Source: Branchiostoma floridae (lineage: Eukaryota > Chordata > Leptocardii > Amphioxiformes > Branchiostomatidae). Taken from it: DNA of 64,000 nt. Below are positions 1,578-64,000 of the stretch, piece after piece. Made by a program: the position numbers and the translations under genes. Under the pieces are notes generated by a model. That model was not told the origin of the DNA. It did not search any database and was given only the letters and a program-made list of their open reading frames with translations. Numbering within the stretch: the stretch's first letter is position 1; the number at the start of each line of letters is the position of its first letter. The DNA is taken from the NCBI RefSeq assembly GCF_000003815.2, contig NC_049982.1, positions 2,682,546 to 2,746,545 on the forward strand. Direction: 5' to 3'.

Positions 1578-13719
<12,142 letters not shown>

Positions 13720-21917: not shown

Positions 21918-23988
21918 ATGATGATTTGGGCGGCAATCGTTCTTTCCGTGGTCATCACAGCGGTCACTTCCCAAGGTATTCACTTTTCCTAGTCTTGTAA
22001 GGAACCTTACTGATGCCTGGGTGTCACTTAGTTTATACTCCGCATGTTTATTTAGCAAACATATGGAACGGGATGTTCAGTAACGGGGGATATGATAATT
22101 ATGATATAGTTGGCATGTCAGAAAAAGCCGACAAGGAGGCAACGGCGCGTGTCTTAACACATTACTTTTCACCGTCAAAACCCCGCATGCAATTGCTGAA
22201 TGAATACCCGCATCAAAGATTTTTTGGCTAAACTAGAATAAGAACAAGTCACAAAAACATGTTCAAAATCAATAGATACAAGGTAAACTAACTTTTCTTC
22301 CCTTTTAGTTATATCAGAAATAGGGTTTGTCTGGCTGAATCAGAAATCTGGTTATGACTACAATACGTGTGTAGCTAGGAAAAATGGTTTAAATAACTGT
22401 ATCATCTCTTTACTGTATAGCCAACATTTAACTTCAAAACGACATTCGTCCTCATTCCACTCATCCTTGTTGCTTACAGACTGCCCTGCTAACAGCCACT
22501 GGAATAACTGCGGCTCTGCCTGCCCGGAGACATGTGACTCCGGCCCGTTCCAGATCTGTTTGGCGGTCTGCGTGCCCGGCTGTGTGTGTGATGCTGGGTA
22601 CGTGCTGCACAACGGGGTCTGTATCCACCATGATGAGTGTCCGGCAAAGGGTGAGAATTGTTTGCTCCTTTTTAGTTTTGTCTGCTTGTTTGTTTGTTTG
22701 ATTGTCTGTTTGTTTGTGTGCTGCGTGTCCGCCTGTGAGTGTGACCGCAGGTACGTCCTTTATAACGGTGTGTGTATCCGTCAAGACGAATGTCCGGCAA
22801 AGGGTATTACGAAGGACTTTTTTTTGCTCGCTCGTTTTGTTTGTTTTGTTTGTTTGTTTGTTTGTTTGTTTGTGTCTCCTTAACCGACCTGTGCACCTGG
22901 TACTTCGCTACATGTTGGCTACACACATTTTTGTTGTTTACTATGGTCTATCTGCGGCTCGGCCTGTCCCCAGACGTGTGAAGTAAATAAGCTATTGGAG
23001 TGTTTGTTGTTTATTTATTTGTTTGTTTACTACAGAATGCCCCGCCAACAGTCACTGGTTCGGCCTGCCCCAAGACGTGTAAAGCGTACCAGTTGTTCGA
23101 CTGTGTGTTGTTTAGTTATTTATATATTTATTTGTTTATTTTTGTTTACCACAGAATGCCCCGCTAACAGTCATTGGTCCGACTGCGGTTCGGCGTGCCC
23201 CCAGACGTGTGAAGCAAGCCACCTGTTCCAGTGCCTGTTGTATATTTATTTATTTGTTTGTTTATTTTTGTTTACCACAGAATGCCCCGCTAACAGTCAC
23301 TGGTCTGACTGCGGTTCGGCCTGCCCCCAAACGTGCGTGACGAGCGGGCTGTTCGGCTGTGGTGCCGCCTGTGTGCCCTCGTGTGTCTGTGACGACGGGT
23401 TCGTGTTCGAGTCGCCCCATCACGGGGCCTGCATCGCGCCTGACCAATGCCCCGGAGGTAACGTTATAGTCACGGAATATATGTCTTTTATAAATCCCGA
23501 ATGGATAAAGTTATATATAAGTTATATAGAATCTTATGCATATGTGAGTAACATGATGTTAATGTTAATGCTATCTGAGAGAGGCGTCGATACTACCGGT
23601 AGAGATCCCGATCGGAGCCTCTGCCAACGGATATCGAGACTCAGATGAGAGGAATGTGGTTTCCCAATGTAAATGTTGTTTCTGAGAGAAGGGCTAAGGC
23701 TTTGGTTTGGTTTGATACAGATCTTCATTTAGTAGTAAACCAAACTCCGGGTAGGAAATGTGACGCAGACCTAACACAGAACATGTTTTTCAGAATAGTA
23801 GTGGACTTGAATAAAGTAGTTCTAAACGGGAACTATGCGGCTACAGCGTCTTTTCTGAAAATGCATCTTAAGTATATTCGGTTGGCTTAAGGTTGTTCGC
23901 TACTATTTGTCATATGCGTGTTTTAGAAAATACGTTTTAATCAGTCACTTTGTCCGTAACAGGAAACCCCATGTTGACCGGACGTTAG
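21918..23988 (+). CDS. Secreted double TIL-domain protein, paralogue 2 (about 145 aa)
   Basis: Exons: 21918-21975 (signal peptide, MMIWAAIVLSVVITAVTSQ), 22480-22650 (TIL 1), 23281-23457 (TIL 2) and 23963-23988 (tail GNPMLTGR, stop TAG). Phase-1 introns throughout, GT-AG borders, and AATAAA at 24061. Both TIL modules have ten cysteines; TIL 2 is two residues longer than in paralogue 1 (an SPHH insertion near its end). The first exon, tail exon and upstream sequence are close to those of 18207-20247, so this is a tandem duplicate. Between the two intact TIL exons lie at least four truncated TIL copies (22700-23250), some with usable acceptors but no proper donor. Role as for paralogue 1: secreted, possibly a protease inhibitor or mucus component, unproven. 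Confidence 0.78.
22700..23250 (+). pseudogene. Array of truncated TIL exons separated by TTTG/TTTA tracts
   Basis: Order: a 3' half (about 22724-22800, CECDRRYVL...C-I-R-Q-D-E-C), then three 5' halves beginning near 22945, 23036 (internal deletion, then stop) and 23157. The last two start after good acceptors. All 5' halves end in a similar phrase (tgtttgttg, tgtgtgttg, tgcctgttg) fused to TTTA/TTTG repeats and 'tttaccacag'. Spacing is about 95 to 124 bp, so this is a coding-derived minisatellite. Confidence 0.75.
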
Positions 23989-25744: not shown

Positions 25745-28700
25745 ATGAGTCGGTACTTTCTGGAGATGGCGCCCACGATGTCCGAGGCGCAGCTGAAAGG
25801 GCTGGACGAGCACAAGTACTCGGCTTCGGGCACATCGGCCGTGGAACCCGTCATGCAGGTACGGGCGCTTCGGGAGGAAGGGGGAGGGGGGCGGTCTGGC
25901 GATCTGACATGACGCCGGTTTGTTTTTGTGTTGCGTGTGTTTTGATCGCTATTTATATCGCATAATTACATACGTCAAGATTTAGCAAAACATAGAATAC
26001 CTCCACCACGCGGTTGTGTTATTATTTTCCCCTGTTGGTGAATTTAAGGATAACCTCTTCTATTTTCAAAACGTTTGTGAAAAAAAAAAAGATCGGTTTA
26101 TATTTTTCACGATGATATATCAATATCTTCATAATATATTTTCCAGTGTCCAAACTGCAGTGGTATGCGATCTTGGATCAGTCAATCTTTCATTAGAAAA
26201 CAGATTTTTTAAAGGTGATTTTGTTCCTGAAGGTCGTTAGATACTAGAAAAGCCTGTCCCTTGCCGGCCCCGGAGTCGAACTTTGAACCCTTGCCCCCTG
26301 TTTAGGGACTTGTCGATTAGGCCTGACCTTGCTGAGGTAATGGGTCTCCGGTTACCTACAGTACAGGGCTGTTGTAGCCTGTAGGGCTTCTCTTGTTTGC
26401 AAAACACTGTTATATAAGTAAGGTTACACAACAGTCTTGGTATGGTCCGTAGGGACTTATCTCCAAGCAGAACCAGTAACGTTATATATTGAACTATAAA
26501 TTTCTTCAAGGAAAGACTTGACAGACTCATGTGGCAGCACACAACGTGTAATTTTATTACCAAGCTCTAGACAACCCCCACAAACTGGAAATGACTGTGA
26601 TATAAAAGTGAAGAGCAGCCTAAATGAAAGAAGCCGTTTCCTACCTGGCCGAAGGAACTCATATCAAAAGCTGGCAAAGCAGTGTAGCTAGGCTGCAAAT
26701 ATAGGAATGATCATAATATTTGGTTGCCTTCCGTAGCTATTTTAACATTTGAATTCAGTCTCTCCTTGGCTGGCTACACTCCTTTTGACAGCCTTTGATA
26801 CTACATGTGTTCTTATGTTACCATAGAATCATCTACTAGTATGAGATTACCTACTAGAGACCATAATTTGTAAGGACTGGTCTAATTTGACTATCATTAT
26901 GTAAATAGCTAAATGCTTATCTTCAAGAAGATGTACTAGTAAGTAAGGAGTTATATGCCTATTTTTGCAACATAACTCATTAGTGCTCTTCTGTACTTTT
27001 AGTAGTATGTTTTGTCTGAACGTTTATTTATTTATGTGAAGCTCAAATTTGCCTGCAGACATTTTTACAGTATAAGAACTATAACATAGATAAAGGGACA
27101 CTGTTTGCAAACTAGCCTGGAGCCTAAAAGTAGTTACTCAAGCAACTTGATATATGGTTTTGGGCGTTTCAACTGCTATCACGCGGTTTTCGTCAGTGAC
27201 ACTGAAGTGATCTGGAAGAAACAGGTCTTTTATACCCAAACAATGATGAATTAAGACAATTTTGGATGTCCAATAGGAAAGGTTGTACTGTCAGACAATT
27301 TAGGTTGAAGACAATTTGGATTCCAATAGAAGACAAAAGGAAAAGTAAAGTCAAGCTGAAGACAATCTTGGATGTCAGTAACTAGGAAACAAAGCTAAGA
27401 CACAGTTGATGCAAATGAGTCAATTAGCTCCTGTTGCTTTGGTTACTGGAGCTAAGTGTTTAGTTGGCGGGGGGTGGGGGGGGGTTGGGAGAGCGAGATC
27501 CCAAGTACCAGNNNNNNNNNNNNNNNNNNNNNNNNNNNNNNNNNNNNNNNNNNNNNNNNNNNNNNNNNNNNNNNNNNNNNNNNNNNNNNNNNNNNNNNNN
27601 NNNNNNNNNNNNNNNNNNNNNNNNNNNNNNNNNNNNNNNNNNNNNNNNNNNNNNNNNNNNNNNNNNNNNNNNNNNNNNNNNNNNNNNNNNNNNNNNNNNN
27701 NNNNNNNNNNNNNNNNNNNNNNNNNNNNNNNNNNNNNNNNNNNNNNNNNNNNNNNNNNNNNNNNNNNNNNNNNNNNNNNNNNNNNNNNNNNNNNNNNNNN
27801 NNNNNNNNNNNNNNNNNNNNNNNNNNNNNNNNNNNNNNNNNNNNNNNNNNNNNNNNNNNNNNNNNNNNNNNNNNNNNNNNNNNNNNNNNNNNNNNNNNNN
27901 NNNNNNNNNNNNNNNNNNNNNNNNNNNNNNNNNNNNNNNNNNNNNNNNNNNNNNNNNNNNNNNNNNNNNNNNNNNNNNNNNNNNNNNNNNNNNNNNNNNN
28001 NNNNNNNNNNNNNNNNNNNNNNNNNNNNNNNNNNNNNNNNNNAACATTGTATATTCTGCACTGTTCTGTACGTTATGTTTCTGGCTGTTTTTCCCATCCT
28101 TCCCCCTTCGTGTGTCCGCAGGTGTTCTGGCGCTGGCTGGTGGAGAAAGTTCCGCTGTGGGTGGCTCCGAACCTCATCACACTGGTGGGGCTCATTATCA
28201 ATGTGGTGACATCACTGCTGCTCATGTACTACTCACCTACGGCTAAGGAAGAGGTGGGACTCACACTGCACCCACACCAACACACTTACTACGTACTAAC
28301 CTACAGCTAAGGAAGAGGTGGGACTTACACTGCATACACACACACACGCGCAAACACACCATGGCATGCATACACATGTGCGCAGACACACACACATGAT
28401 CATCAACGTTGTGACATCACTACTGCTCATGTACTACTCTCCTATGGCTTTAAGGAAGAGGTGGGACTCACACTGCACACACATACTCTCTCACACACAC
28501 ACACACTTACACACATGCATGCTCACACACTGACTGGCACACATACACACACACTAGAGTAGGTGATAGATACAAAACAAGGTTGTTTTATGTTTGTGTA
28601 CCAAATTTTGGGCTATACTGATTGATACTTACATCCAGGATGTCCTAAGGCGTAGAGGGATATTTACCTAGCATGAAATCTACCGATTGGTTGCACAGAC

Positions 28701-31700: not shown

Positions 31701-34700
31701 GGGGGCATTATCAAGGCACATCTCTGTCAAATTTCAGCTCATTTGGTTGTAATACCAGGGTACAGGGGCCAAAAGTGTCCTTTTTTGGTCAAAAATTGGT
31801 CAAAAAATCGCAAAAATAAGCATTTTGTTGTACTGTACACCAAAAGTGTTATCGAATTTATATGGGGGCATTATCAAGGCACATCTCTGTCAAATTTCAG
31901 CTCATTTGGTTGTAATACCAGGGTACAGGGGCCAAAATATACAGTTTTGGTCTAAAATTGACCAAAAAAATCTCAATAAAATCATTTTAGAGGCAGATAT
32001 GAAAAAACTGAGAAAAAAGCATCAAGGTCATTCGGTCCAGGGTCATTCGGTCCAGGAACGGCGGAGATGAATCACTTTGAAGATTTGACAGGAGAAAGAA
32101 GAAAGAAACATTACGAATACAATATATTTCACCATACTATGTATGGCTGAAATATAAAAAGTTTTTGAGTGAAAATCGGTTGAATGAAAGGTTTGAAAAG
32201 ACCCTATCTGTGACCTTGAATAAGTCAAGCTGAGTGTGAGTCATTTTCACATGACCCTGTGGTATGTGTGAAACAGCCTGTAGGTCGTTGACCTTTGAAC
32301 CTTTCACAAGTTGAATATTGTCCAAAGGCATTATTCCCTTGATTCAATGTTGGCTTTGTTAACTACATATTGAAATGATTGTGTTGTGTAAGTCAAAATC
32401 GATAAAAAAATCATGTCCTGCGCCTTTTGTTGGAAACTGCAACATCTTGTGTTCGAAACATAACATGAAGCTGACATTTATTCATCAGGCATTATGTAGC
32501 GTTACATGAAGCCTCTAGACTAGTAGTAGAGGTTCTTGACAAAGCTGTCCTTTGTGTTCATGTCCCGCAGCAGGTCTATTAAAGAGCTAATAATGAGATA
32601 ACTGTAAAATCAATTGATACATAATTATATACACTCACTAAACAGTGTAACATAAGTTCATCATTATCAGTGGGATAACCTATATCTATTGTTTTTAAAA
32701 ATGGTAAAGCAACGGATTAAGGTGAACTAGCATTGAATGTTGAATTCATTGAAGCTACATTAGCCCATTGTTTGCATGTGCCTATGGGGTCATGTCAGTG
32801 ACTGAGGCAATATTTTAACACATATTGGCTCCTCCCCGTGGCCTTCTCTTGCCAGGGACATCCACAGAATGTTTGCATGCATACTCATACCCCGAAGCTT
32901 TGCAACATGTACAACAGCAGGCTATAGTATTCATAAGTAACCTATGGGGGCCTGACTGAGCCAATATTTCAGCACACTGACTCCTCCCCTGTGGCCTTGG
33001 CTTGCCAAGGACATGGGCAGAGCTTTTTGCATGCACACTCATACCCTGAAGCTTTGAAACATGTACAACAACATGTAACAGTAACAGGTAGGGAGGCCTG
33101 ATTGAGGACCTCTTCTCCACATGATTTTGCTAACTAATTCCAGAGCAGGTCATTCCCTCCCATGATGTTTATGAAGGTAACAGGGATACATTCTTTGTGT
33201 AGGAAGTCAGAACTCTATGCAGGTACAGATATCCGATGTGTGATCCAGTGTGGGTGTGTACAGACTCCAGCACCGGTGTACAAGACGGGTTAACATGACT
33301 TTGTGCTACAGCCTGTACAGGCCCCAGCATGGCTGCACATCCATTGTGTATCTGTGTGTTACAGGCCCAAGCATGGGTGTACATACTAGTACCGTGAGTG
33401 CCATGTGCGCTACAGGCCCCAGCATGGGTGTAGCTATGTGTTACAGGTCCCAGCGTGGGTGTACATACCGTGTGTTGCAGACCTCAGCATGGGTGTACAT
33501 GTTGTGTGTATCTATGTGTTACAGGCCCCAGCGTGGGTGTACATGTCCTGTGCCGTGGGGTTGTTCCTGTACCAGTCGTTAGACGCGATCGACGGGAAGC
33601 AGGCCCGCCGGACCGGCAGCAGCACGCCGCTCGGGGAGCTGTTCGATCACGGCTGCGACTCCATATCAACAGGTCAGAGGAAAACAAACAAACAAGCAAA
33701 CAAACAAATAAACAACCATAACAGACCTACAGTAGGGCGTATTAGCAAATGTATGCAATTTCCTTTTCAATGCTCCTCTTTTAATGACAATGTTCCTGTT
33801 TTTAAAAAACTAACATGGGCTAAAAATACCGCTGGAATTTTAAGAAGTGCCACCTAGCCTGAGCACAGAGTAATGCAGTTTGCCTGGATGCTCGGTCCAG
33901 GCCAACCTTTACTCATACAGCTGGTGATCACATGGAAAAAGGAAAGTGATCTCGATCCAGTTTTAGCTCACTGAAGAGCTACAGTGTCACATTGTAGTCT
34001 TCCACGGGTCATGACAGAGAGGACAGATGCTATGTACAATATTTACAGATTTACTATATCCGGGAAATTCCCCTAGCTCTTTTTGACAAGCACAATGATC
34101 AGTGGACAATGGCTTGTGTATACATGTACATCCTAATGGAAGTCCTGCGTGATGGTAATACTTTCCCCCCGTTCCTTTCCCAGTGTTTGTTGGAGTGGCG
34201 ACATGCTGTGCCATGACGATGGGAGACAACCCAGACCTCATGTTCATCACGTTTTTCAACGCCGTCTTTGTCTTCTACTGCGCGCACTGGCAGACATACG
34301 TGTCGGGCACACTCAAATTTGGCTAGTAAGTGTACAATATACTGATTTTCTCTTACTGTACATTTGTTTGTTTGTTTGTTTATTAATTCTAATACATGTG
34401 TACAATGTATATTCGGATATTTCCCTTTGATATTACATATTGATATATGTATCTGCATCAGGAATTGAAAGAACCTTTTTAACATATGAGATTTTTAAGA
34501 TTTGTATTTCCAACCATGAAAGCACTATAGAATTAAGTACCAGTACTAAGTACATTGAGCACATCCCTTGAATATAACGCTAGTTCACCTTTATCCACTG
34601 GGTAACCTATACCCGTTGCTTTTAAACATTGTATTTTGATAGTATTGCAATTTGAAACTACATTCCATCAACTTGATATTTCTGAATACCCTGTAAAAAA

Positions 34701-37700
34701 AAAAACTGATATAGGTTACGCCGGAAAAAGTTGAACTAGCGTTAAGTGTATAACTATAAGATCATGTGTACCTCTATCGTAACCCTCTTGTACATTGTGC
34801 TTAAAAATTTTAAGGAACCATTGCATTTTAGATACTGTACAAGATGAGGAAATATCCTGTGTTCCGTGCGTAACTGGCCTGCCCTGTTGTCCACAGTTTT
34901 GATGTGACAGAAACTCAGTTTGGAGTGATAATGCTGTTCTTAATGAGCATGGTCCTGGGCCATGAGTTCTGGGGGATGCAGGTAGGAGAACAGACTGAGG
35001 AGGCTGGCATCCATGGGAGAACCCTTTGGTCTATCATGTGTTATGAGTATAAAGAGGATAACATAAGTAAAGAGTCAATTTTGCCCTAATTTTTGCATGC
35101 AAGATTTTCGCTTCATCAGTCAGCCTATGGATGTAAAAACATTCTGCAAAATAAGAGCAAATTTGTAATTGTCAGAAACTTGTTGTAATTTTTCAGTTCG
35201 TTATGCTAAGTGTAGACATTGTTTTTGTGATTAATTTTATGACCTTTTAAGAATAGGTGGAAACATGCCAAGTGTACTTGAACATAAACCAAAGGGTACT
35301 CCATATGTATGCCACACAGTTTTAAGAATGTAACATGTACATGTATGCACATGTAGAAGGATGGGAGACAGAAGTCACATCGAATCTACGCATATTAAAC
35401 TTTGACTCAAAATTATTTCATGATAATTACAGGTCAAGAATGGAACGGCAATTTTTGATCTAATGCAAAACTATTAATTTGACAACCAATCAACCAATTT
35501 GGACAGATTTGTGGAAACTGTGATCTCACCTCACAGAGGATGAACTGAACTAATCAACCAATACCTATCATTGCAAACTTTAAGATTGTCTCCCGTCTTC
35601 CTACGACCTGAGAACGATGATTTCTGCCTGCTCTCTTCTCACCTCTGACCTTTACCCCCCTCCCCACCCCTGTTCCCCAGCATCAATGTTACTGAAGCCC
35701 AGATTCTCATCATGGCCATACATATAGTTTCTGCCGTTTTCGGTACTTCGATCTGGTTCAACAAGGTACTCTGGGTCTTCTTTTTTTTCTATGGATTTTT
35801 TTCTTTTTTAATCCGTGGTTGATGTTGTTGCATGGTTGCATGATTTTTGTGTGATGCATGTGTAGTGTAGCCTGGGTACCATCTGGATAGAAGTTCGCTC
35901 CTAATAATTGCTTCTGCTATCCGTCTAGGGACCTGCACATTCAAACCGTTTGGTGGTTACGCCAGGTTATGAGCGAATTAAGGAATGGGTTCTTGAGCGC
36001 TTGTTCGATGACGACAGGCCATCCTGCAAGCAGACATAGGACTTGTCCGATGTTGGAAAACCTGTTCGAACGATCACTTGAAGCCATTCCTTTATTTGCT
36101 CATGTGTAGGGACCAATCAGCACCCTTGTCCAAACTTTGGACTATACCAGACGGAAACGTGCTCCAGGACCCCAGACGCAACAGCAGAGAAGTGATGTAT
36201 ATAAATTATATAGAAGTGTATAATAAATGTCAGAGCTAGAAGAAACAGTGTAATATATAGTATGAAAGGAACGCTGGAGCGAACTACTCTTCGGATGGTA
36301 CCCAGGCTATCTGTAGTGAGAGTTGTTGTGTTAGTCTATTTGGAAAGCCCCACTACATCGCTTAATGAAGACAGAATCAATGTCACACTGGAAGATTCGT
36401 GAGCATTGAGAAACATACATCTATGCCAACATCTTGCATTGGGGCTTTCCTAGTAGTGGTAGTCATGTGGTTTTTGTGTCATCATGTTAAGATTTTTATC
36501 TTAGACTTTAAAACTCGAACATAATGACGGTTGTGGTTATATTGCATCCCTTTGTTGTTAACACCAGCTCCATGAACTTGATTAAGTTTGCAGATGGCCA
36601 TGGTCGTGTTTTTGCAACATGTGTTAACAATTAACTTTGTTGATGACAGAACTAGAATACCTTCATGAAACATTTACTTACCAAATGTATTAACTCAATT
36701 CAAGTTGACTGCTTGTAGTCTTTAGTCTGTCACATGCACAAATGTAATACTATGTTGAAAAGGATTCACTCATACCTTCTTAATTACAAAGTTAACATTT
36801 TGCAGTTTGTATGTTAGCATTCGGCTGTGTGCATGTACAGTATGTGTGTATGATTATGTAACTGCCACATTTTAAAAACAGTTCAAACACATGGGTTTAA
36901 AGTGTACTTAACAATAAGCATTGTTAGCCCATTTACCTTCCGTTTGGCATTCTACCAAGAAGGTTTTTCTGCATGCACATGCCAGAGTTTGATTGCATTT
37001 TTGGACAGCGTTCATTTAAATATTTTTTTGACATTGAGACCTCTTGTTCCTTGTTGGACTGCCCCAAAAATTTAAAAGAAAAAAAAAAGAAATTTGTCCT
37101 ATATGAAACTGTGCTGGTTTCTCCCTTCCTACCACATTTATGACAATTAATGATAGAAATTCACCCCTTATCCCTCTTGCCCAACATATAGTATCCTGCA
37201 AGTAAGAATTTACTACTTAAACTTTTCTGCCTATTCTTGAATAAAACCAAATGACCCTCCCTAATCCACAAAGTTAAAACCCTGCAAATCATCACTTACT
37301 TATAAATGATTCCTATTCTAATCTATGAATTCAAAATAACAAGCTTTCTAATTAGTAATAACGATTGTATACTATAGGTTTCTGATTGGTGTATTGCTTG
37401 AAACTTCTGAATGTAGATGAAATATGACTCGAATTTACTGCAAGTAAACAATCACATTTCATGCAGACACAAATGAACAATGGATAACAAATTAAAATTC
37501 TTTTTACTACAAGTAAGGTAAAGTACTCATTACCAATCACCTGACGACTTTTCAGTGGCCGTCTGTCACCTTAGGTCAGTACGTGTATTGGCCGGTTCTA
37601 CTTCCCACTGTTGCAAGAAGTCACAGCTGCAATGCAGGGTTTTAGCCAGCACCCGTCCTTCAGTCCTTTGAAGGAATTTTGTAACTGGGGACTGAAAAAA

Positions 37701-40700
37701 ATTTGCCCATTCAGTCCTCTGTGAGCAAAATTCAACCCTCAAAATGGAGGAAATAGCATTTCAGAGGGTCTAGATTTCTAAATTTTCCTTGGGAGCATGC
37801 CCCCGGACCCTGTGCCAAATTGAGGGGACGGAAAATGATTTCTGGCTGGCTACAACCCTGCTGCAATGTAAAGATACATGTATGTTCCCAAATGTGACAG
37901 AGTTTGTCCCACTTAACTTCAAGGTAAAATCAGTCTGATAGTATACATTTGTATTGCCCTGAGAAAGTTAGCTGACGGTCACTGAAATGTTGGAAGGTGA
38001 TTATAATGTAAGTTGGCGGATGTAAATGAGTTTGTTTAGGCTTGGGTTACTTTCCCCGACCGGAGCCTGGTCAGGATGTTTAAAGAAACGAAAAATTAGA
38101 AATTTATGTGTACAAAATGTACCTAGAAATGTAACGCTAGTTCACCTTTATCCGCGGGGTAACCTATATCCGTTGCTGTCAGAAATGGGTAGTTAGGGAT
38201 ATCAAGTCGACGCACGAGAGTCTCAAACTACAATATTTTGAAGGCATTACAACTTGAAACCACCGTCCGTCCCTTAATACCATGTTAGTAAACACAACGA
38301 ATGTAGGTTACCCTGCGGATAAAGGTGAACTAGCGTTACACAATTTATACCCATGAATCTTATGTTTACATTTTCTGCATTTTCATGTCTTTTATATAAT
38401 TATTTTCCCTCCTGAAAGCTGCTCCGGCCGGGCCCCGGTTTGGAAATGTGACCTTAGCCTAACCAGTGATTTTACCCTGACTGGAAGAAACTATTCAAGG
38501 AGACCAATAAGGATTTCAGCATGTTGCTGTCTGCCCCCCTCCCGCAGGTCCCCCTGGTGGGTTTGTCTGTCCGTGTGATCGCAGTGATCTGTTCCACGTC
38601 TCTCTCCACGTGGACAGTCTGGGGGAACTTCCAGACTATCCTGAAGGGCGGAGCAGGGAAAAACGGCTCAACAGTAGCGGTGATTATATCAGAGATTTCT
38701 TTTACACTATCTACTATTAAAGTCTTGAGTGCTTATCATGTTGTTTTGATGCCTATCAGAGATATTCTAGTACAACAATGTAGGTGCTTCTGACTGTACA
38801 TTATAAGTGCTGCTTCTCGCCACTCTATATGGCCAATGCAGGTGGCACTTCTTTGTGGTGAGAACACAATCCCAAACGTGAAGAAGTTTGTATCCCCCCT
38901 CATCTCTGTTCATAACGGGTTGATTTACATACATTAACTACATACATGTATTGCTGCAAGAAGCAGCACTCTAGTCAGATTCTGAATCGCTTCATTCCAA
39001 AACCTATTTCAAAGTCAATAAGGAACAACTTCTGCAGTTCCAGTTGGAAAGCAACCATGCTAGTCTATAGAGCATCCAAGCCTACCCCTGTTTTTCAATC
39101 ATTTTCTTAATCAACTTTTACGATTTCTCCCTGTACAGGGTACGAGTGTCCTCTCGCCGGGGTTCCCGATCCTGTTCCCCATCGTCCTGGCTCTGATGAT
39201 CTACAAGAAATCCTCCATGGGCCTGTTCCAGAACCACCCCTGCCTCTATCTGCTCATGTTCGGCATGAGCATAGGAAAAATCACCAACAAACTGGTAGTA
39301 AGTACTCCCTGTCTCAGGCAAAATCACCAACAAACTGGTAGTAAGTACTGCCTTTCTCTAGCAAAATCACCAACAAACTGGTAGTAAGTACTCCCTGTCT
39401 CAGGCAAAATCACCAACAAACTGGTAGTAAGTACTGCCTGTCTCATAAGCAAAATTACCAACAAACTGGTAGTAAGTACTCCCTGTCTCAGGCAAAATCA
39501 CCAACAAACTGGTAGTAAGTACTGCCTTTCTCAGGCAAAATCACCAACAAACTGGTAGTAAGTACTGCCTTTCTCAAGCAAAATCACCAACAAACTGGTA
39601 GTAAGTACTGCCTTTCTCAAGCAAAATCACCAACAAACTGGTAGTAAGTACGTCCCTGTCTCAGGCAAAATCACCAACAAACTGGTAGTAAGTACTGCCT
39701 TTCTCAAGCAAAATCACCAACAAACTGGTAGTAAGTACTGCCTTTCTCAAGCAAAATCACCAACAAACTGGTAGTAAGTACTGCCTTTCTCAAGCAAAAT
39801 CACCAACAAACTGGTAGTAAGTACTGCCTTTCTCAAGCAAAATCACCAACAAACTGGTAGTAAGTACGTCCCTGTCTCAGGCAAAATCACCAACAAACTG
39901 GTAGTAAGTACTGCCTTTCTCAAGCAAAATCACCAACAAACTGGTAGTAAGTACTGCCTTTCTCAGGCAAAATCACCAACAAACTGGTAGTAAGTTACTA
40001 TTAAGTATTACGGGTAGAAGCGCTCAAAATCATACCTTCTCCCAACGCCTTTTTGCATAAGGTTCTTGCAAATCTAATAATGCTCCTGCCTATTGCATAA
40101 GGTTTGTGCATTTTGCATAGTGATTTGTACGATTTTCAGAAGATTTGTGCATTTTGCATTGTGATTTGTACGATTTTCAGAAGATTTGTGCATTTTGCAT
40201 AGTGATTTTTACGATTTTCAGAAGATTCGTGCGTTTTTGGATAGTGATTTGGGGGTATCACATAATTTTTCTACAAATTTCATACTGTAGGGTTCGTGCA
40301 AATGCTTTAATAGGCACCCTAGCGGATGTCTAACCTTCATAAACACAATACAAAGCTTTGTTATCACAGTCAGACATTTTCTTTAAATTTCCTTGTCCTG
40401 TTTGCAGATTGCACATATGACGAAAAGTGAGATGACGATGTTTGACTCGTCGATGATTGGCCCTGGACTGCTGTTCCTGGACCAGTACTTCAACAGTTTT
40501 ATCAACGAGTACATCGTTCTATGGATAAGTTTGGTAAGTAAATGAATAAAAATAATCACTAATTTGTGTTCCAGGTATGTTTGGTCAGTAGATAATTAGG
40601 AGTGCATCGTGTCCTAGATGTGTATTAATGTATGTATAATATTTGATGTGACAGACATACCAAACCTAGGTCGCCTTTATGCTGACACACTATGTTCTTG

Positions 40701-51263: not shown

Positions 51264-54200
51264 GGTTCCTCCCTTTTCTTTTCTCTATCTCATTCTGTCT
51301 GCCTTTCTTCAGGTTTTCTCTTTACCTTTCTGCCTGTATGTGACTGTATCTTCGTCTCTGTGCTCTATCTTTTCTGTCTCTTCATCTCTCCACTCCCATC
51401 ATCTTTGTCAATATGTCAAACAAACAAACAAGGGGGTAAGGTAATTAATGAGGAACTCAATTTAACTGGAAGTCTTGTGTGCGGTTAACGGTGGGCAACA
51501 TATTGCGACGGTGGTTATCTATATATTGCAGGCCCCAACCTGGGTGTACGCCGTGTGCGCTGTGGGCTGGTTCCTGTACCAGTGTCTGGACGGGATGGAC
51601 GGGAAGCAGGACTGGGTGTACATGTCGTGTGTTATGTGTGTTACAGGCCCCAGCCTGGGTGTACGCTGTGTGCGCTGTGGGCTGGTTCCTGTACCAGTGT
51701 CTGGACGGGATGGACGGGAAGCAGGCCCGCCGAACCGGCAGCAGCACGCCGCTCGGGGAGCTGTTCGACCACGGCTCGGACGCCGTTTCAACAGGTTAGT
51801 TCCTAAAGATACAAATTCAAGAGCTGAAATCGTTCAATTATGAATGGGGGTCGTTTGCTATAGCTAGTTTTAACGTGGACAAAATTTTCTTCCTACCTTT
51901 CTAAGCAAAGTCTCTTCATCGACTAGTCTGTTTAACACAAACTCCGCTGTCCAGGGCTGTAACTGGCCCCTAGGGGGCCGGCGGATGTTTGGCGGGCTGC
52001 TATAAGCGAGATTTAATCAGGCTATTCATCGACAACCTCATTTTTACGTCATACGATAACCTTACCCAACATTGAAACTAGCGAACCAGCGTCCCCCCCC
52101 CCCCATGGAATAAATGCAAGTCCCGCTCCAAGCCTGCGCAGGAAGCTAAACTACCCCTACCTTCTTGTTTCCAGTTCTGCTCTCCATCGCTACGGCCTGC
52201 GCCATGAAGCTGGGACAGACTCCGGACCTGATGTTCTTCATGATCTTCCTCACCATGTTCGTGTTCTACTGCACGCACTGGGAATCTCACGTGTCAGGGA
52301 CGGTCAAGTGTGAACTGTGCGTATTCTAGTAACGTCCAACACTACAGCAATTGTTATTCAAATACAATTCAATCTCTACAACTGGATAAAAACGGATATT
52401 TACTTCCGGACGTTTCGAGTGACATCCATCACTCTTCTTCAGATGGATGTCACTCGAAACGAATTGTATTTGAATATTGCTTACCTGGATGTCTAACATT
52501 CATAAACGTACAGCAATTGTTTGTTCGCATAAAAGAGATGATGATGCACAGAGAAATTTCTAACAGTCAAACAATTTACAGGGTGAGTAAAAACCTCCAG
52601 GGCATATGGTTGAATTCCCCTCCTTCAAACATAACACAATCATCATAATATCAATAAGACAACGGTAGAATCAATAAACGGAAACAAATTATGGTATACA
52701 TGTATACGTCTTATCATTTGATACCTATGCGATTTTTTTCTTACGCGGCAATGCTGCCTGGGTGTTGCCTTGTTGCCAAATAAGATTAGTGCACAATGAA
52801 ACCGTTTCAATGGTTACGCATTTCCTGCAGATCTGCAAAGGAAAATTTGTATGTATGATGTGCTGGTATACCGGTAGGATTTATAGCAATATTTTTCACA
52901 TCAACGGTGTACCTACAACTCCTTCTTCTTGTTGTTGAAATGACTGTGCATATTTGTTCTATTTTCCAGCATTGATGTCGTCGAAGCACAAAGCTTCTCC
53001 GTCATAGTCCAAGCCCTTTCTGCACTGCTCGGCCCTTCATTTTGGTACAAGGTAGACTTTTACTACACATAAATGTCTACTTGTGATGTTAGTGTTGACC
53101 TATCACCATGGTATCTGTTTGACTGGGAAATGCAAACCTATACGTGTATATAATGTAATAACTATTCCACTGTACTCCACGAGTGTGAGTCAGGGAGCAA
53201 TTTTTCCTCGATTGAATGTTATGAAATTGGGGACAAAGGTACAGGCATATGTCTTCATTAGCACACTAAGCACGCGCAAGGTATCTAAACAGCCTCATTC
53301 GCAGACTCCTAGTAACAGTAATGGGTTACTGGTAATATGTCTGATATGCTTCGACTGTCCAGTGCGGGAGACTAGACAAAGTTTTGCATTGATGCTCACA
53401 TGGGAATGTTTCCTTTCTTTCTTATCTCTAGTTCCCCCAGCCAATTGTAGTCGCCGCCTTTTTCAGCATTGTGGGTGCGTCGCTATGGAAACTGCACGGC
53501 AACTTCCGGACGATCCTGTCAGAAAAGGTTGGCACCGACAGCGGCGCGGCTGCGCTCCCTAGTGCCGAATGCCCTGCGATGCAGGACGGTCACCTGAAAA
53601 GTTCTGAAAAGGTGGCGGGTTTGGAGACTAAAATGTTTTCGGAGGTGCTTTGATCTTGTGGTGCATGAAATAATTTGATTTCCAAAATCATTAAAATACA
53701 CTTATACATCAGACCTTGCTAACCGAGTTCCAGAAAAACATTTTACGGCTTAAGGAGAAATCGATATAGACAAACTATCATTTCTAAGTTAGCGAACTTT
53801 GTACAAGCAAAATATCAACAACATACCTTCCTACGATCTATACGATTATCTTGAAATTGATTTACAAAAACCTTTTCACTAGACGGCGATCACCGTATAG
53901 CGACTGAAAGGCAGATTCAATATTTCTTTGACGTGTTATTTCAGAAAATTGACGTGTTATTTCAGAAAATTGAAAAATGCAATAGGAATTAAAAGACATC
54001 AAAACCACAAAACGTTTTTAAAAATTCTTTAATAAAATATCTCGTCAAGCAATATTTTTGGGCTCTGCCTTTGAATACTATACCATAGACACATGTACAG
54101 TAGATAAAAACTCACTACGCATTAGACCTCAAAAAAGGCTTTGTCAGAACTACTTTTACCTTAACTATTAGAATATGTTTTCTACTTACAGAACTTTAGT

Positions 54201-55179
54201 ATCCTGTCTCCCGGCTTTGCGGGCTTGTTCCCTATCGTCCTGGCCTGCATCACCTACGGAACCTCCCCCGAACTGTTTCTGAACCATCCCTGTCTCTACC
54301 TGCTCATGTTCGGACTCGCCATCGCGAAGGTCAACAACAAACTCATCGTAAGTTACACATGTTAAAAAAAAAAAATGTCCGCAGCTTTTAGCTTCCTATA
54401 TCGTTGCCAGGAAATAAAATCTTGTTTTTTGTTGTCATATCAAATTCTATGCTGATTGTGGTAAACCATGCACATGCATGTACTTCTTGCCTCCTAGATA
54501 TTTAAAGATGAGAAAGGTAATAGATCCGAACATGGATTACTTACAACTACAAATTTTGCACGCTTCGCTTGAATATCACAATTCATGCAGATGAAGTATT
54601 CATGAAAAGAAAACAACAATTTCATTATCACGACAAATAGGTACAAGTGTGGCACTGACTTTATAGCACATATCATGTAACACATTACACATATATAGAG
54701 CAGCATCAGATTGGAACAAACTATCACATGAGCTGCAAACTGCGAACACATCCAGGATTTTCAGACGGCAGCTGGTGTAATATGGGAGACTTAGCTAAAG
54801 ACACATGAGGGGCTTGATGATTTTGGATAAGGTACATGTTGTATGTGTGTATGTTGCAAACTGTATGTGTCCAAGTATTATGTGTATTACTCCAGGAAGA
54901 TTAGTTGTTGCATTGATATGTTAACAACTAAAGGAGTCAATGAACAATAAACAATAAACAAAATTGCTGCACAAAAGCAATGCTCTGTCAATAACTATGG
55001 GATCTGCCATCCGACCAGGTCGCACACATCACAAAAAGTGAAATGACGGCATTGGACTCGTCCATGGTCGGTCCGGGGGTGTTGTTTCTCAGCCAGTGCT
55101 GTGGCAGCTTCGTCAGCGGATATGCCGTGCTCTGGATATGTTTGGTGAGGTTATGCCAATGAAACACACATACAAACAT

Positions 55180-58737: not shown

Positions 58738-59804
58738 TTCAAATATTATTTCGGGATGAGATTTGAAGAGTCAAAGTTAGCCTTCAAACTGGCTCTTTAT
58801 GCCTGTTTTCGGCCTCGATTTCGCACTGCATGGGGGTTTCCGTGCAACCGATTACGATCATATACTTCCGGGTCGTACGAGTGAGGTCATTGAACGCGGG
58901 TCACCAGGTATCTTGACTGTCTCAGTCTGCGCTAGGTTCGGTAGAGGAGGATTCAAGTCAGGCTTACGCATATTGTTAAATTAGGTTTGTTAAGGGACTC
59001 TTGGCGAAAGTATGTTTGAACTTGCAGAACGTTTTTTAAGTTTGTGTTTGTTCGTATCGTCTCGGCCCACGTTGCGAATCTGCAACGGTTGTAAGGTCCC
59101 TTCCGAACGAACTAACTGGCATTCTCGTAGACACCAGGAGACAAACTGTGTTAATTTGAATAACACATTTAAAGAACAGTGCTGTAAGAAGTGTATACAG
59201 GGAACTAAGAGCGGAAAACGTGTTTGGGAGACCTCCTTGGGGAGACAAACTGTGTCAATTTGAATGACACACTTACATAATAGCGCGTACTACTGTATGT
59301 AGCTTAACTAATAGCGATAAACGACTGTTTAGGAGACAAACTATGTCAATTTGAATGGCGCACTTACATAATAGCGCCGTAAGAACTATATGTAGCTAAC
59401 AAATAGCGAGAAACGTGTTCAGGAGACAAAATGTGTCACTTTGAATGACACATTTATAGAACAGCGATGTTAGACCTGTATATAGCTATTAAGTAATCGC
59501 GGAAAACGTATTCAGGTGTCAAACTGTGCCAATTTGAATGACAAACTTATAGAACAAAGCTAAAAGAACTGTATATAGCTAACTAATAGCGGAAGAACTG
59601 TATATAGTTAACTTGAAGCGGAATGCGTGTTCAAATGTCAATCTGTGTCAAATTGAATGACACACTTGTAGACAGCGCCCAAAGAACTGTATATAGCAAA
59701 CTAATAGCGAAAACGTATTCAGGAGACAAACTGTGTCAATTTGAATGACACACTTAAAGAACAAAGCTGAATGAACTGTATACAGCTAACTAATAGCGAA
59801 AAAC

Positions 59805-60480
59805 NNNNNNNNNNNNNNNNNNNNNNNNNNNNNNNNNNNNNNNNNNNNNNNNNNNNNNNNNNNNNNNNNNNNNNNNNNNNNNNNNNNNNNNNNNNNNNNN
59901 NNNNNNNNNNNNNNNNNNNNNNNNNNNNNNNNNNNNNNNNNNNNNNNNNNNNNNNNNNNNNNNNNNNNNNNNNNNNNNNNNNNNNNNNNNNNNNNNNNNN
60001 NNNNNNNNNNNNNNNNNNNNNNNNNNNNNNNNNNNNNNNNNNNNNNNNNNNNNNNNNNNNNNNNNNNNNNNNNNNNNNNNNNNNNNNNNNNNNNNNNNNN
60101 NNNNNNNNNNNNNNNNNNNNNNNNNNNNNNNNNNNNNNNNNNNNNNNNNNNNNNNNNNNNNNNNNNNNNNNNNNNNNNNNNNNNNNNNNNNNNNNNNNNN
60201 NNNNNNNNNNNNNNNNNNNNNNNNNNNNNNNNNNNNNNNNNNNNNNNNNNNNNNNNNNNNNNNNNNNNNNNNNNNNNNNNNNNNNNNNNNNNNNNNNNNN
60301 NNNNNNNNNNNNNNNNNNNNNNNNNNNNNNNNNNNNNNNNNNNNNNNNNNNNNNNNNNNNNNNNNNNNNNNNNNNNNNNNNNNNNNNNNNNNNNNNNNNN
60401 NNNNNNNNNNNNNNNNNNNNNNNNNNNNNNNNNNNNNNNNNNNNNNNNNNNNNNNNNNNNNNNNNNNNNNNNNNNNNNNN
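59805..60480. other. Assembly gap (676 N)
   Basis: Inside the forward satellite arm; the true length is uncertain. Confidence 0.99.
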
Positions 60481-62682
60481 GAAAAAGAACTGTATATAGC
60501 TAACTAATAGCGGAAAACATGTTCAGGAGTCAAACTGTGTCAATTTGAATGACACACTTACATAATAGTGCCGTAAGAACTGTATATAGCTAACTAATAG
60601 CGAAAAACGTGTTCAGGAGTCAAACTGTGTCAATTTGAATGACACACTTACATGATAGTGCCGTAAAAACTGTGTATAGCTAACTAGGAGCGAAAAACAT
60701 GTTCAGGAGACAAACTGTGTCAATTTGAATGACACAATGCATTATAGAATAGCGCTGTAAGAACTGTATATAGTTAACTTAAAGCGGAATGCGTGTTCAA
60801 ATGTCAAACTGTGTCAATTTGAATGACACACTTGTAGACAGCGCCCAAATAACTGTATATAACAAACTAATACCGAAAACGTATTCAGGAGACAAACTGT
60901 GTCAATTTGAATGACACACTTACAGGTAGCGCAATAAGAAATGTACATAGCTAACTCATAGCGAAGTGTAACGCGTTCAGTTGACAAACTGTGTCAATTT
61001 GAATGACACACTTATATAATGGTGCCGTAAGAACTGTATATAGCTAACTTAAAGCGGAATATTAATGCGTGTTCAGAAGTCAAACTGTGTCAATATGAAT
61101 GACACACTTACATAATAGCGCGGTTCAGGCAGCACTTTTCTGCAAGTGTGTCAGACAAGTTCTAAGGTCCCTTCTTACGAACTAAATGGCGTTCCTTCGT
61201 ATATATATGACTTTAGATGCGGTTATTTCATATCAATTAACAACTGATTACTGGAGTTTGGACCATGGTAGGGTTTAAAGTAACTGAAATACTAACTTGT
61301 TCAAGTAAACTGTCAAATCTAGTACTGCGCTGTCTGAGCTGAAAACTGTGTCAATCATATGACACACTTTTGAAACGCATAATAACTATCTTATGACGGA
61401 AAACTCGCTCTGCCGAAAACTTTTTCAATCGAATGATTATACGATTTAGGCATATCTATTCAGTTTGCTAGTTTGTCACATTAATTGACACAATAGTTTA
61501 TAACAGAAAACTTTGTCAGGAGGACGGCTTTGCAATTAATAACCGAGTGGTAAACAGTATAAAACTGCCTCATGACGGAAACTTTGGTGGACAACTGTCA
61601 CTGATAGTATGGCACACTAGTGCGATGATTAAACAGTATTAAAATGATGGAAGACTTGGTCGGGACGACAACGGTGTCAATTAACAAGTTTTTTAAAACT
61701 TATTAAAATTTCACAAAACGGAAAACCCTCACGGTCAGTACGACAACTGTATCAAATGACAGAAAACCTTGTCAGGAGCTCGAGGACAACTGTTATTTCA
61801 TATGACACACTATGAAACACGATGTGAAATCAGTGTAAAATTGTCTTGATGGCGGACGACTTTTTCAGGAGGGAAATTGTGTGAATTTGTCTGACACCTT
61901 TGTAAGCGATGTTTGAACCGTGTCTTAAAATTGGAAAACGTTTTTCCGGGGGACAACTGTGTCAATCTATATCACCCACAATTAGAAAAGCGCTGTTTAA
62001 CGTGTGTAAAATTGATCACGGAAAAAGTTGGACAGTAAAGAATTTGTGTCAATTTATATGACACACTGGTAAAAAGTGTACTTTGGGCTGTACCTAACAA
62101 CTTTATTGCTGAAAACGTAGTCAAAAGCACAGCTGTGTCGATTTGTTTCGACACATTTGTAGAATAGCGCCGAACGTATAGTATACAAATGTATGACTAA
62201 ATCTTAACGGCTAATGTGTTCAGGACACAAAACTGTGTCAATTTGTATGATACACCTAAAGAAAGGCGCTGTAAGAACTGCATATAACCATTTTACAACA
62301 GAAAACTTCGTTAGGAGGGCAACTGTGTCAATTAATATGACACACAAGTAAAGTAAAGCGATAATTAAATAGTATGATCATCCGATTGAAAAAGTTTGTT
62401 AGAGCAAGCTTTCGTCAAAATAAATTTACCTCGCTGTTCTATGAATGTGTCATTCACATAGACACATTTTGTATCCTAAACACGTTTTTTTAAATTGGTT
62501 AGCTATGTACTGTTTTTACGGCGCTATAATGTGAGTATGTCATGCAAATTGACACAGTTTGTCCCCTGAACACGTTTTCCGCTATATACAGTTCTTACAG
62601 CACTTTTCTATAAATCTGTCATTCAAATTGACACAGGTAGTCTACTGAATACACTTTTCGCTTTAAGTTAGTTATATACTGT

Positions 62683-63102
62683 NNNNNNNNNNNNNNNNNN
62701 NNNNNNNNNNNNNNNNNNNNNNNNNNNNNNNNNNNNNNNNNNNNNNNNNNNNNNNNNNNNNNNNNNNNNNNNNNNNNNNNNNNNNNNNNNNNNNNNNNNN
62801 NNNNNNNNNNNNNNNNNNNNNNNNNNNNNNNNNNNNNNNNNNNNNNNNNNNNNNNNNNNNNNNNNNNNNNNNNNNNNNNNNNNNNNNNNNNNNNNNNNNN
62901 NNNNNNNNNNNNNNNNNNNNNNNNNNNNNNNNNNNNNNNNNNNNNNNNNNNNNNNNNNNNNNNNNNNNNNNNNNNNNNNNNNNNNNNNNNNNNNNNNNNN
63001 NNNNNNNNNNNNNNNNNNNNNNNNNNNNNNNNNNNNNNNNNNNNNNNNNNNNNNNNNNNNNNNNNNNNNNNNNNNNNNNNNNNNNNNNNNNNNNNNNNNN
63101 NN
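62683..63102. other. Assembly gap (420 N)
   Basis: Inside the reverse satellite arm. Confidence 0.99.
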
Positions 63103-63860
63103 CTTTTCCGCTATTAGTTTGCTATATACAGTTCTTATTGCGCTATCTGCAGCTGTGTCATCAAAATTGACACAGTTTGTCTTCTGACCACGAAACACTT
63201 CGCTATGAGTTTGCTATGTACATTTCTTATTGCGCTATCTGCAAGTGTGTCATTCAAATTGACACAGTTTGTCTTCTGAACACGTAACACTTCGCTATGA
63301 GTTTGCTATGTACATTTCTTATTGCGCTATCTGCAAGTGTGTCATTCAAATTGACACAGTTTGTCTTCTGAACACTTTTTCCGCTATTAGTTTGCTATAT
63401 ACAGTTCTTATTGCACTATCTGCAAGTGTGTCATTCAAATTGACACAGTTTGTCTCCTGAACACTTTTTCCGCTATTAGTTTGCTATATGCATTTCTTAT
63501 TGCGCTACCTGTAAGTGTGTCATTCAAATTGACACAGTTTGTCTCCTGAACACTTTTTCCGCTATTAGTTTGCTATATACAGTTCTTCTTGCGCTATCTG
63601 CAAGTGTGTCATTCAAATTGACACAGTTTGTCTTCTGATCACGTTACACTTCGCTATGAGTTAGCTATATACATTTCTTATTGCGTTATCTGTAAGTGTG
63701 TCATTCAAATTGACACAGTTTGTCTCCTGAACACTTTTCCCGCTATTAGTTTGCTATATACAGTTCCTATTGCGCTATCTGCAAGTGTGTCATTCAAATT
63801 GACACAGTTTGTCTCCTGAACACTTTTTCCGCTATTAGTTTGCTATATACAGTTCTTATT

Positions 63861-64000
63861 GAATGATCTTTATTTGCATGTTCCTGCCCTTGTGGGCTAA
63901 ATGCAGCAAATCCCATAATGGGATACTAATTATAAAGACTAAGTACTATAACATGTAGTATTACAATTGAATAAATAGTAACTTTATAGAGACTTCGATA
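63861..64000 (-). mobile_element. Probable retroelement 3' end, reverse orientation
   Basis: Reads on the minus strand as 'cccattatgggatttgctgc...aataaagatcattc', like the 3' terminus of a LINE or SINE. It abuts the last satellite unit exactly and is truncated by the window end. Confidence 0.4.

Follow-up and report, generated by a model that had tools for sequence, protein, structure and literature searches.

The window, by which we mean the whole 64,000-nt stretch of Branchiostoma floridae DNA analysed here, contains two tandem copies of a lipid-making gene that is, by sequence homology, a relative of the choline/ethanolamine phosphotransferases (CEPT1/CHPT1), together with an upstream TIL-domain gene. 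The best matches among PDB chains to a 350-residue piece of the product of the first copy (copy A) were 8gyw (choline/ethanolaminephosphotransferase 1; E 1.8e-137, residues 2–337) and 8ero (cholinephosphotransferase 1; E 2.2e-130, residues 1–342), and Pfam gave a match to CDP-OH_P_transf (E 1.1e-11). The second, diverged copy (copy B) lies 15 kb downstream, at 50.9–55.7 kb. Exons were called from homology together with AG/GT. The label 'exon 7' for 39139–39297 counts one unseen first exon of copy A, and an N run of 531 bases (27512–28042) lies ahead of the first exon that we recognised. The features around the array are as follows (a caret marks an exon–intron border).

28122–28253, 33525–33672, 34184–34325, 34897–34981 (or 35681–35765), 38548–38679, 39139–39297, 40408–40533 and 40869 onward, + strand: exons of copy A, in one open frame.
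39139–39297, + strand: exon whose 3′ end is duplicated (GTSVLSP...GKITNKLV), with phase 0 on either side, assigned by protein homology.
39277–39319, + strand: unit 1 of the array, AAAATCACCAACAAACTGGTA^GTAAGT plus a 16-nt spacer; the sole frame-keeping, conserved-protein donor.
39320–39995, + strand: units 2–17, intronic copies of the exon end and donor, spaced at 43, 44 or 45 bp.
39382–39384, + strand: TAG ending unit 3, the first stop for donors 4–17; the donor 3 stop falls at the same codon.
40099–40251, + strand: separate 41-bp array of 3.7 copies, wholly intronic, in the same intron.
40408–40533, + strand: next exon after the array, with acceptor ctgtttgcag.
54192–54347, + strand: homologous exon of copy B, ending ...NNKLI^GTAAGT at 54347, with one donor.

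Within copy A we also observed two versions of one 85-nt exon, 784 bp apart (34897–34981, FDVTETQF..., and 35681–35765, INVTEAQI...). They look mutually exclusive, because the frame would break if both were included.

TRF detected a minisatellite at 39277–39995 (period 43, 16.6 copies, 94% matches, score 1262). Anchoring on the 27-nt core AAAATCACCAACAAACTGGTA^GTAAGT resolved 17 units, with starts at 39277, 39320 and so on to 39969, and with spacings of 43 bp in 13 of 16 cases, 44 bp in two and 45 bp in one. This bears out the preliminary description, made from the letters alone, of a unit that joins an exon end to a 5′ splice site and recurs 17 times at 43–45 bp; the start given there, 39281, has to be moved to 39277. 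Each unit consists of 21 nt of exon end, GTAAGT and an intronic spacer of 16–18 nt (originally put at about 15 intron bases), which is the variable part of the unit. The core is identical in 16 of the 17 units, and the exception, in unit 5, is synonymous (ATC>ATT, isoleucine kept). Searching the window for CTGGTAGTAAGT with at most one mismatch returned 17 matches, all of them exact and inside the array, compared with 0.22 on average and at most 2 in 100 shuffles. The array is real in the present sequence and far above chance.

In the alignments to both 8gyw and 8ero, KITNKLV/KITIKLV continues into (V/I)AHMTKSE across the junction without a gap, so that the functional border is that of CTGGTA^GTAAGT in unit 1. 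Splicing in the overlapping register, CTG^GTAGTA, was rejected because it would cost a conserved residue. From the computed reading frames, donor 1 alone yields the conserved protein and all 16 downstream donors yield a premature stop, in line with the earlier statement that only the first donor preserves frame. Use of donor 2 adds 43 nt, shifts the frame and leads to a stop after 23 nt of the next exon, with about 100 nt of that exon still to follow. For donor 3, the stop is formed across the junction, its last base being the first of the next exon, and for donors 4–17 the TAG at 39382–39384 sits 42 to 605 nt ahead of the junction. Read-through had been described as ending at a TAG in unit 2; it in fact crosses unit 2, and the TAG ends unit 3. 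By the position rule of nonsense-mediated decay, the products of all 16 downstream donors would be candidates for decay. We infer that unit 1 is the donor used and that units 2–17 are removed with the intron.

Despite its full GTAAGT, the array donor is ordinary in predicted strength: its predicted U1 pairing of −7.0 kcal/mol ranks 9th among 14 donors compared from three genes in the window (best −10.7), and the word 'strong' applied to it at first does not hold. The copy B donor is predicted to pair more weakly still (−5.7 kcal/mol). RNA folding predicts a hairpin, GGUAGU-AAGU-ACUGCC (−7.0 kcal/mol), that can close the donor GU in 11 of the 17 units (2, 4, 6–8, 10–13, 15 and 16). A C at +10 of the intron weakens this hairpin to −2.3 kcal/mol in units 1, 3 and 5, a one-base insertion leaves it at −0.5 kcal/mol in units 9 and 14, and unit 17 has −3.1 kcal/mol. 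The idea that every unit offers an equally good donor thus fits the letters of the donor, but the predicted RNA context is unequal, with a hairpin stability that differs between units. For 27-nt pieces, the fold of unit 8 (spacer type E, see below) had a z of −2.8, with 4 of 200 shuffles as good, compared with z of −0.8 for unit 1 (45 of 200 shuffles as good), +1.1 for unit 9 and −1.1 for unit 17; the 27-nt piece at the copy B donor gave no fold. Local folding of the precursor put the cost of opening unit 1 at 4.0 or 3.8 kcal/mol (two settings), compared with 5.1–5.9 kcal/mol for type E. Unit 4 was easier to open than unit 1 (2.6 and 3.6 kcal/mol), as were unit 16 (3.5 kcal/mol) in one setting and, marginally, unit 14 in the other. 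The RNA fold of 39270–39450 (about four units) had a z of −1.8 (11 of 200 shuffles as good), and Rfam returned no match at the gathering score. DNA hairpins as a cause of instability were unsupported, with z between −1.5 and 0.2 for five strand folds. We also noted that each spacer in 39277–39995 ends in a pyrimidine tract (8–11 pyrimidines of 12) plus AG; from the second on, the units can also be read as an acceptor, a 22–23-nt exon and a donor.

The 17 copies comprise eight distinct unit sequences. Among the 16 full units, with gaps left out, the mean pairwise difference was 10.0% in the spacer compared with 0.46% in the core, which is about 20 times less variable. In order from unit 1 to unit 16, the spacers are of types A B A C A′ D E E F E E E E F E D. 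Type E is the commonest, the rare type F occurs only in units 9 and 14, five units apart, and type D looks like an A/E recombinant. The recurrence of types and the repeat of type F at a distance of five units suggest expansion in blocks. The spacer type of unit 1 is confined to units 1, 3 and 5, which gives no support to unit 1 as the source of an array-wide conversion. Recent expansion or gene conversion had been proposed as alternatives, and it is the first that the recurring spacer types favour. Under equal mutability, the contrast between core and spacer has a binomial P of 0.005–0.03, based on one core versus 5–7 spacer events that are few and partly shared. Three of these spacer events are the A/E difference, which probably predates the expansion, and the contrast is therefore suggestive only. 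In the 41-bp intronic array, the first three units differ at 2 of 41 positions per pair, between the core and spacer values.

Copy B offers a control for the array. Its identity to copy A is 64.7% for the exon ending at 54347 and 64.3% for the exon that follows the homologous intron and begins at 55019. In this intron we found a single donor and no array, so either the position and phase of the intron predate the array or copy B has lost it. The TTAC that follows the last donor of the array also follows the copy B donor, a slight sign that unit 17 borders on the old intron. Elsewhere in copy B, the exon at 53432–53563, homologous to 38548–38679, is diverged (34% over 35 residues), and no clear donor was seen at its expected end. 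Judged by this exon, copy B may be decaying or differently structured.

Tandem repeats over exon–intron borders, known as mirages, have been described in amphioxus for Adh3, TnC, globins and PGBD5 (PMC3087553, PMC3902484). The preliminary description had placed them at the Adh locus, correctly so: the parts of both papers drawn on here describe such repeats and cite the Adh work. Like the repeats of Adh3, BflGb6, BflGb9, TnC and PGBD5 in these accounts, the array has short units over a donor or acceptor border; its unit spans a boundary set by protein homology, and its 43–45 bp fall within the 10–160 bp given for mirages (PMC3087553). It is clearly a new example of a repeat type known from lancelets. 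We do not claim it as unpublished; among the matches listed by a search of the open-licence literature, made without the gene name, none was by its title a mirage in a phosphotransferase gene. PGBD5 is described with 2 or 7 units of 60 bp and 3 or 6 of 108 bp (PMC3902484), and judged by the 2–7 copies of the globin and PGBD5 genes in these accounts, 17 copies in a CEPT1/CHPT1-like gene would be unusually long for a mirage. Compared with the mirages covered there, it also differs in the gene concerned, in a donor core that is nearly invariant and in sharing its gene with other boundary duplications, three in all in copy A, one of them an acceptor that is duplicated in the paralogue as well.

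We consider it probable that the array is such a mirage, a short border-spanning tandem duplication that expanded on the intron side and is tolerated as a by-product, and not a splicing device. A short tandem duplication across the exon–intron border would have been followed by expansion on the intron side, the array arising by slippage or unequal exchange. Purifying selection would hold unit 1 through both protein and splicing, and recent expansion together with unequal exchange would keep the other copies alike. In computed pairwise unit deletions, the exon end and donor were retained in 136 of 136 cases, and the array would be tolerated since both remain intact whichever whole units are lost. 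This reading fits the 17 units with their 27-nt core, the conserved junction at donor 1, the 16 of 16 downstream stops, the recurrent spacer types, the single-donor paralogue and the further donor- and acceptor-type duplications in the window. It is also consistent with the published mirages, for which the sections cited report no aberrant mRNAs (PMC3087553; PMC3902484 for Adh and TnC). The array is most likely neutral. Against this stands the contrast between core and spacer (0.46% versus 10.0%), which is unexpected under plain neutral expansion. Furthermore, in the excerpted account of DOK7, where two donors compete, SRSF1 activates the intron-proximal and hnRNP A1 the intron-distal site (PMC5585400); donor choice can thus favour the intron-proximal site, and a win of the exon-side donor among 17 is not self-evident. 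Mirage copies with splice signals could also act as cryptic sites (PMC3087553), and the repeats of lancelet PGBD5 were once annotated as containing an extra exon, a call that the authors of PMC3902484 reject in the part cited. Seventeen near-identical donors would amount to a natural experiment on how the spliceosome chooses among equal 5′ splice sites, with a ready control in the paralogue 15 kb away, which has a single donor in the same intron.

It seems unlikely to us that the array instead works as a rheostat of poison donors, in which some downstream donors are used, the premature-stop products are degraded, and the output of the gene depends on the number of copies and on RNA structure. 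Such use would indeed lead to a premature stop from any of the 16 downstream donors, with that of donor 2 about 100 nt before the next junction, and the donor core is nearly invariant. A precedent in the cited part of the literature is human IFI6 (G1P3, 6-16), in which, as in the array, the units of a minisatellite carry splice donors, and two downstream units are used. In the array, however, downstream units do not keep the frame: all 16 lead to premature stops. The IFI6 unit is said to be short, and the protein reportedly stays in frame when downstream units are used. The paralogue lacks an array, and a predicted hairpin more stable than that of unit 1 (−2.3) occurs in 12 of 16 downstream units (−7.0 kcal/mol in 11 and −3.1 in unit 17), so that their use would drop. 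Finally, the sections of PMC3087553 and PMC3902484 drawn on here report no aberrant mRNAs for known mirages.

An assembly artefact, with a true copy number that is much lower or with two haplotypes merged, is improbable in our view. The eight distinct units and the non-random order of the spacers are unlike the copying of one read, and the PGBD5 repeats were confirmed by new sequencing data, according to the part of PMC3902484 cited. The three N runs in the window (531, 676 and 420 bases) nevertheless mean that the sequence comes from a gapped draft; in the cited sections, a globin mirage was aberrantly assembled in the draft (PMC3087553), and two versions of a sequence differed by 2 versus 7 and 3 versus 6 units (PMC3902484). 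The copy number of the array may still be off.

Similarly doubtful is a structurally gated series of donors, in which spacer variation decides which of the identical donors U1 reaches and unit 1 is open. If this were true, array length and the balance between open and closed units would adjust how many transcripts carry a premature stop, making the array a fast-mutating rheostat on phosphatidylcholine/ethanolamine synthesis. The hairpin was spotted post hoc, unit 1 is unremarkable as one among 5 of 17 open units, and units 4, 14 and 16 are at least as open as unit 1 in at least one folding setting.

U1 protects transcripts from premature polyadenylation. That the array serves as a platform for U1, aiding exon definition or blocking premature polyadenylation with only donor 1 cut, is very improbable. 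In its favour, 16 GT sites of the array attain a U1 pairing of −7.0 kcal/mol, compared with about 1.5 in 700 bp predicted from the frequency in the remainder of the window, and according to the part of PMC8724738 cited, an upstream 3′ splice site is stimulated by a 5′ splice site downstream of it. Against it, the paralogue manages with a single donor whose predicted pairing is weaker (−5.7), and in 11 copies the donor lies within a predicted hairpin.

Besides the array, the window contains at least four further boundary duplications, two of them in copy A.

28194–28490, + strand: copy A, exon end and donor ...GCTAAGGAAGAG^GTGGGACT, in three copies of which the middle one is shorter; the exon itself is 28122–28253.
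33309–33541, + strand: copy A, acceptor TACAG^GCCCCAGC(A/G)TGGGTGTA-like, six copies; the last (33525) opens the exon.
51532–51760, + strand: copy B, homologous acceptor, present twice at a distance of 115 bp, with the exon starting from the second copy.
23022–23354, + strand: upstream TIL-domain gene, acceptor (T/C)ACAG^AATGCCCCGC(C/T)AACAGTCA(C/T)TGG, in three copies, with the exon starting from the last.
22568–22805, + strand: TIL-domain gene, duplicated exon end, 153 bp apart, 78% identity over 85 nt.

In the last of these pairs, the intron letters past the two donors differ. Going by the exon calls, the exon-side copy would serve the gene at these borders and the extra copies would be intronic. 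The acceptor duplication shared by copies A and B could be an ancestral mirage or reflect exchange between the paralogues. Boundary duplications have been proposed as a source of new introns in the part of PMC3087553 cited, and several of donor and acceptor type within 64 kb would bear on that idea. One intron of copy A is duplicated at both ends, the donor three times (28194–28490) and the acceptor six times (33309–33541). The spacer letters of the copy B acceptor at 51532–51760 are similar to those at the six-acceptor exon of copy A.

An excess of duplicated borders over the repeat-rich local background was not established, with P of 0.07–0.24 in most tests. The set comprised 32 boundaries of three genes only, those of copy B partly approximate, and left out the donors of B4, B5 and B6, the B5 acceptor and the terminal donors. 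A border was counted as duplicated if it fell in a 32-mer that recurred within 1 kb with an identity of at least 0.75, 0.8125 or 0.875. At these three thresholds, 6, 4 and 4 of the 32 borders were duplicated, compared with a background of 9.9%, 7.8% and 6.2% (binomial P 0.09, 0.24 and 0.13), and 376, 954 and 574 of 4916 shifts across the whole window reached the observed count. Within 22–56 kb, the P values were 0.07, 0.20 and 0.11, and 103, 443 and 230 of 3080 shifts reached it, so that one of six shift tests came to 3.3%. Removing the boundary arrays from the background lowered P to 0.004, 0.024 and 0.008, a step that biases the test. Counted by tract, 5 of 11 duplicated tracts touched a border (2.5 expected, P 0.07), as did 5 of 8 within gene spans (3.2 expected, P 0.15).

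Other repeats in the window include a pure GATG tetranucleotide run at 4301–4502 (TRF: 50.5 copies, 100% matches) and, at 59241–63861, an AT-rich tail in which tandem arrays with units of about 90 bp flank N gaps.
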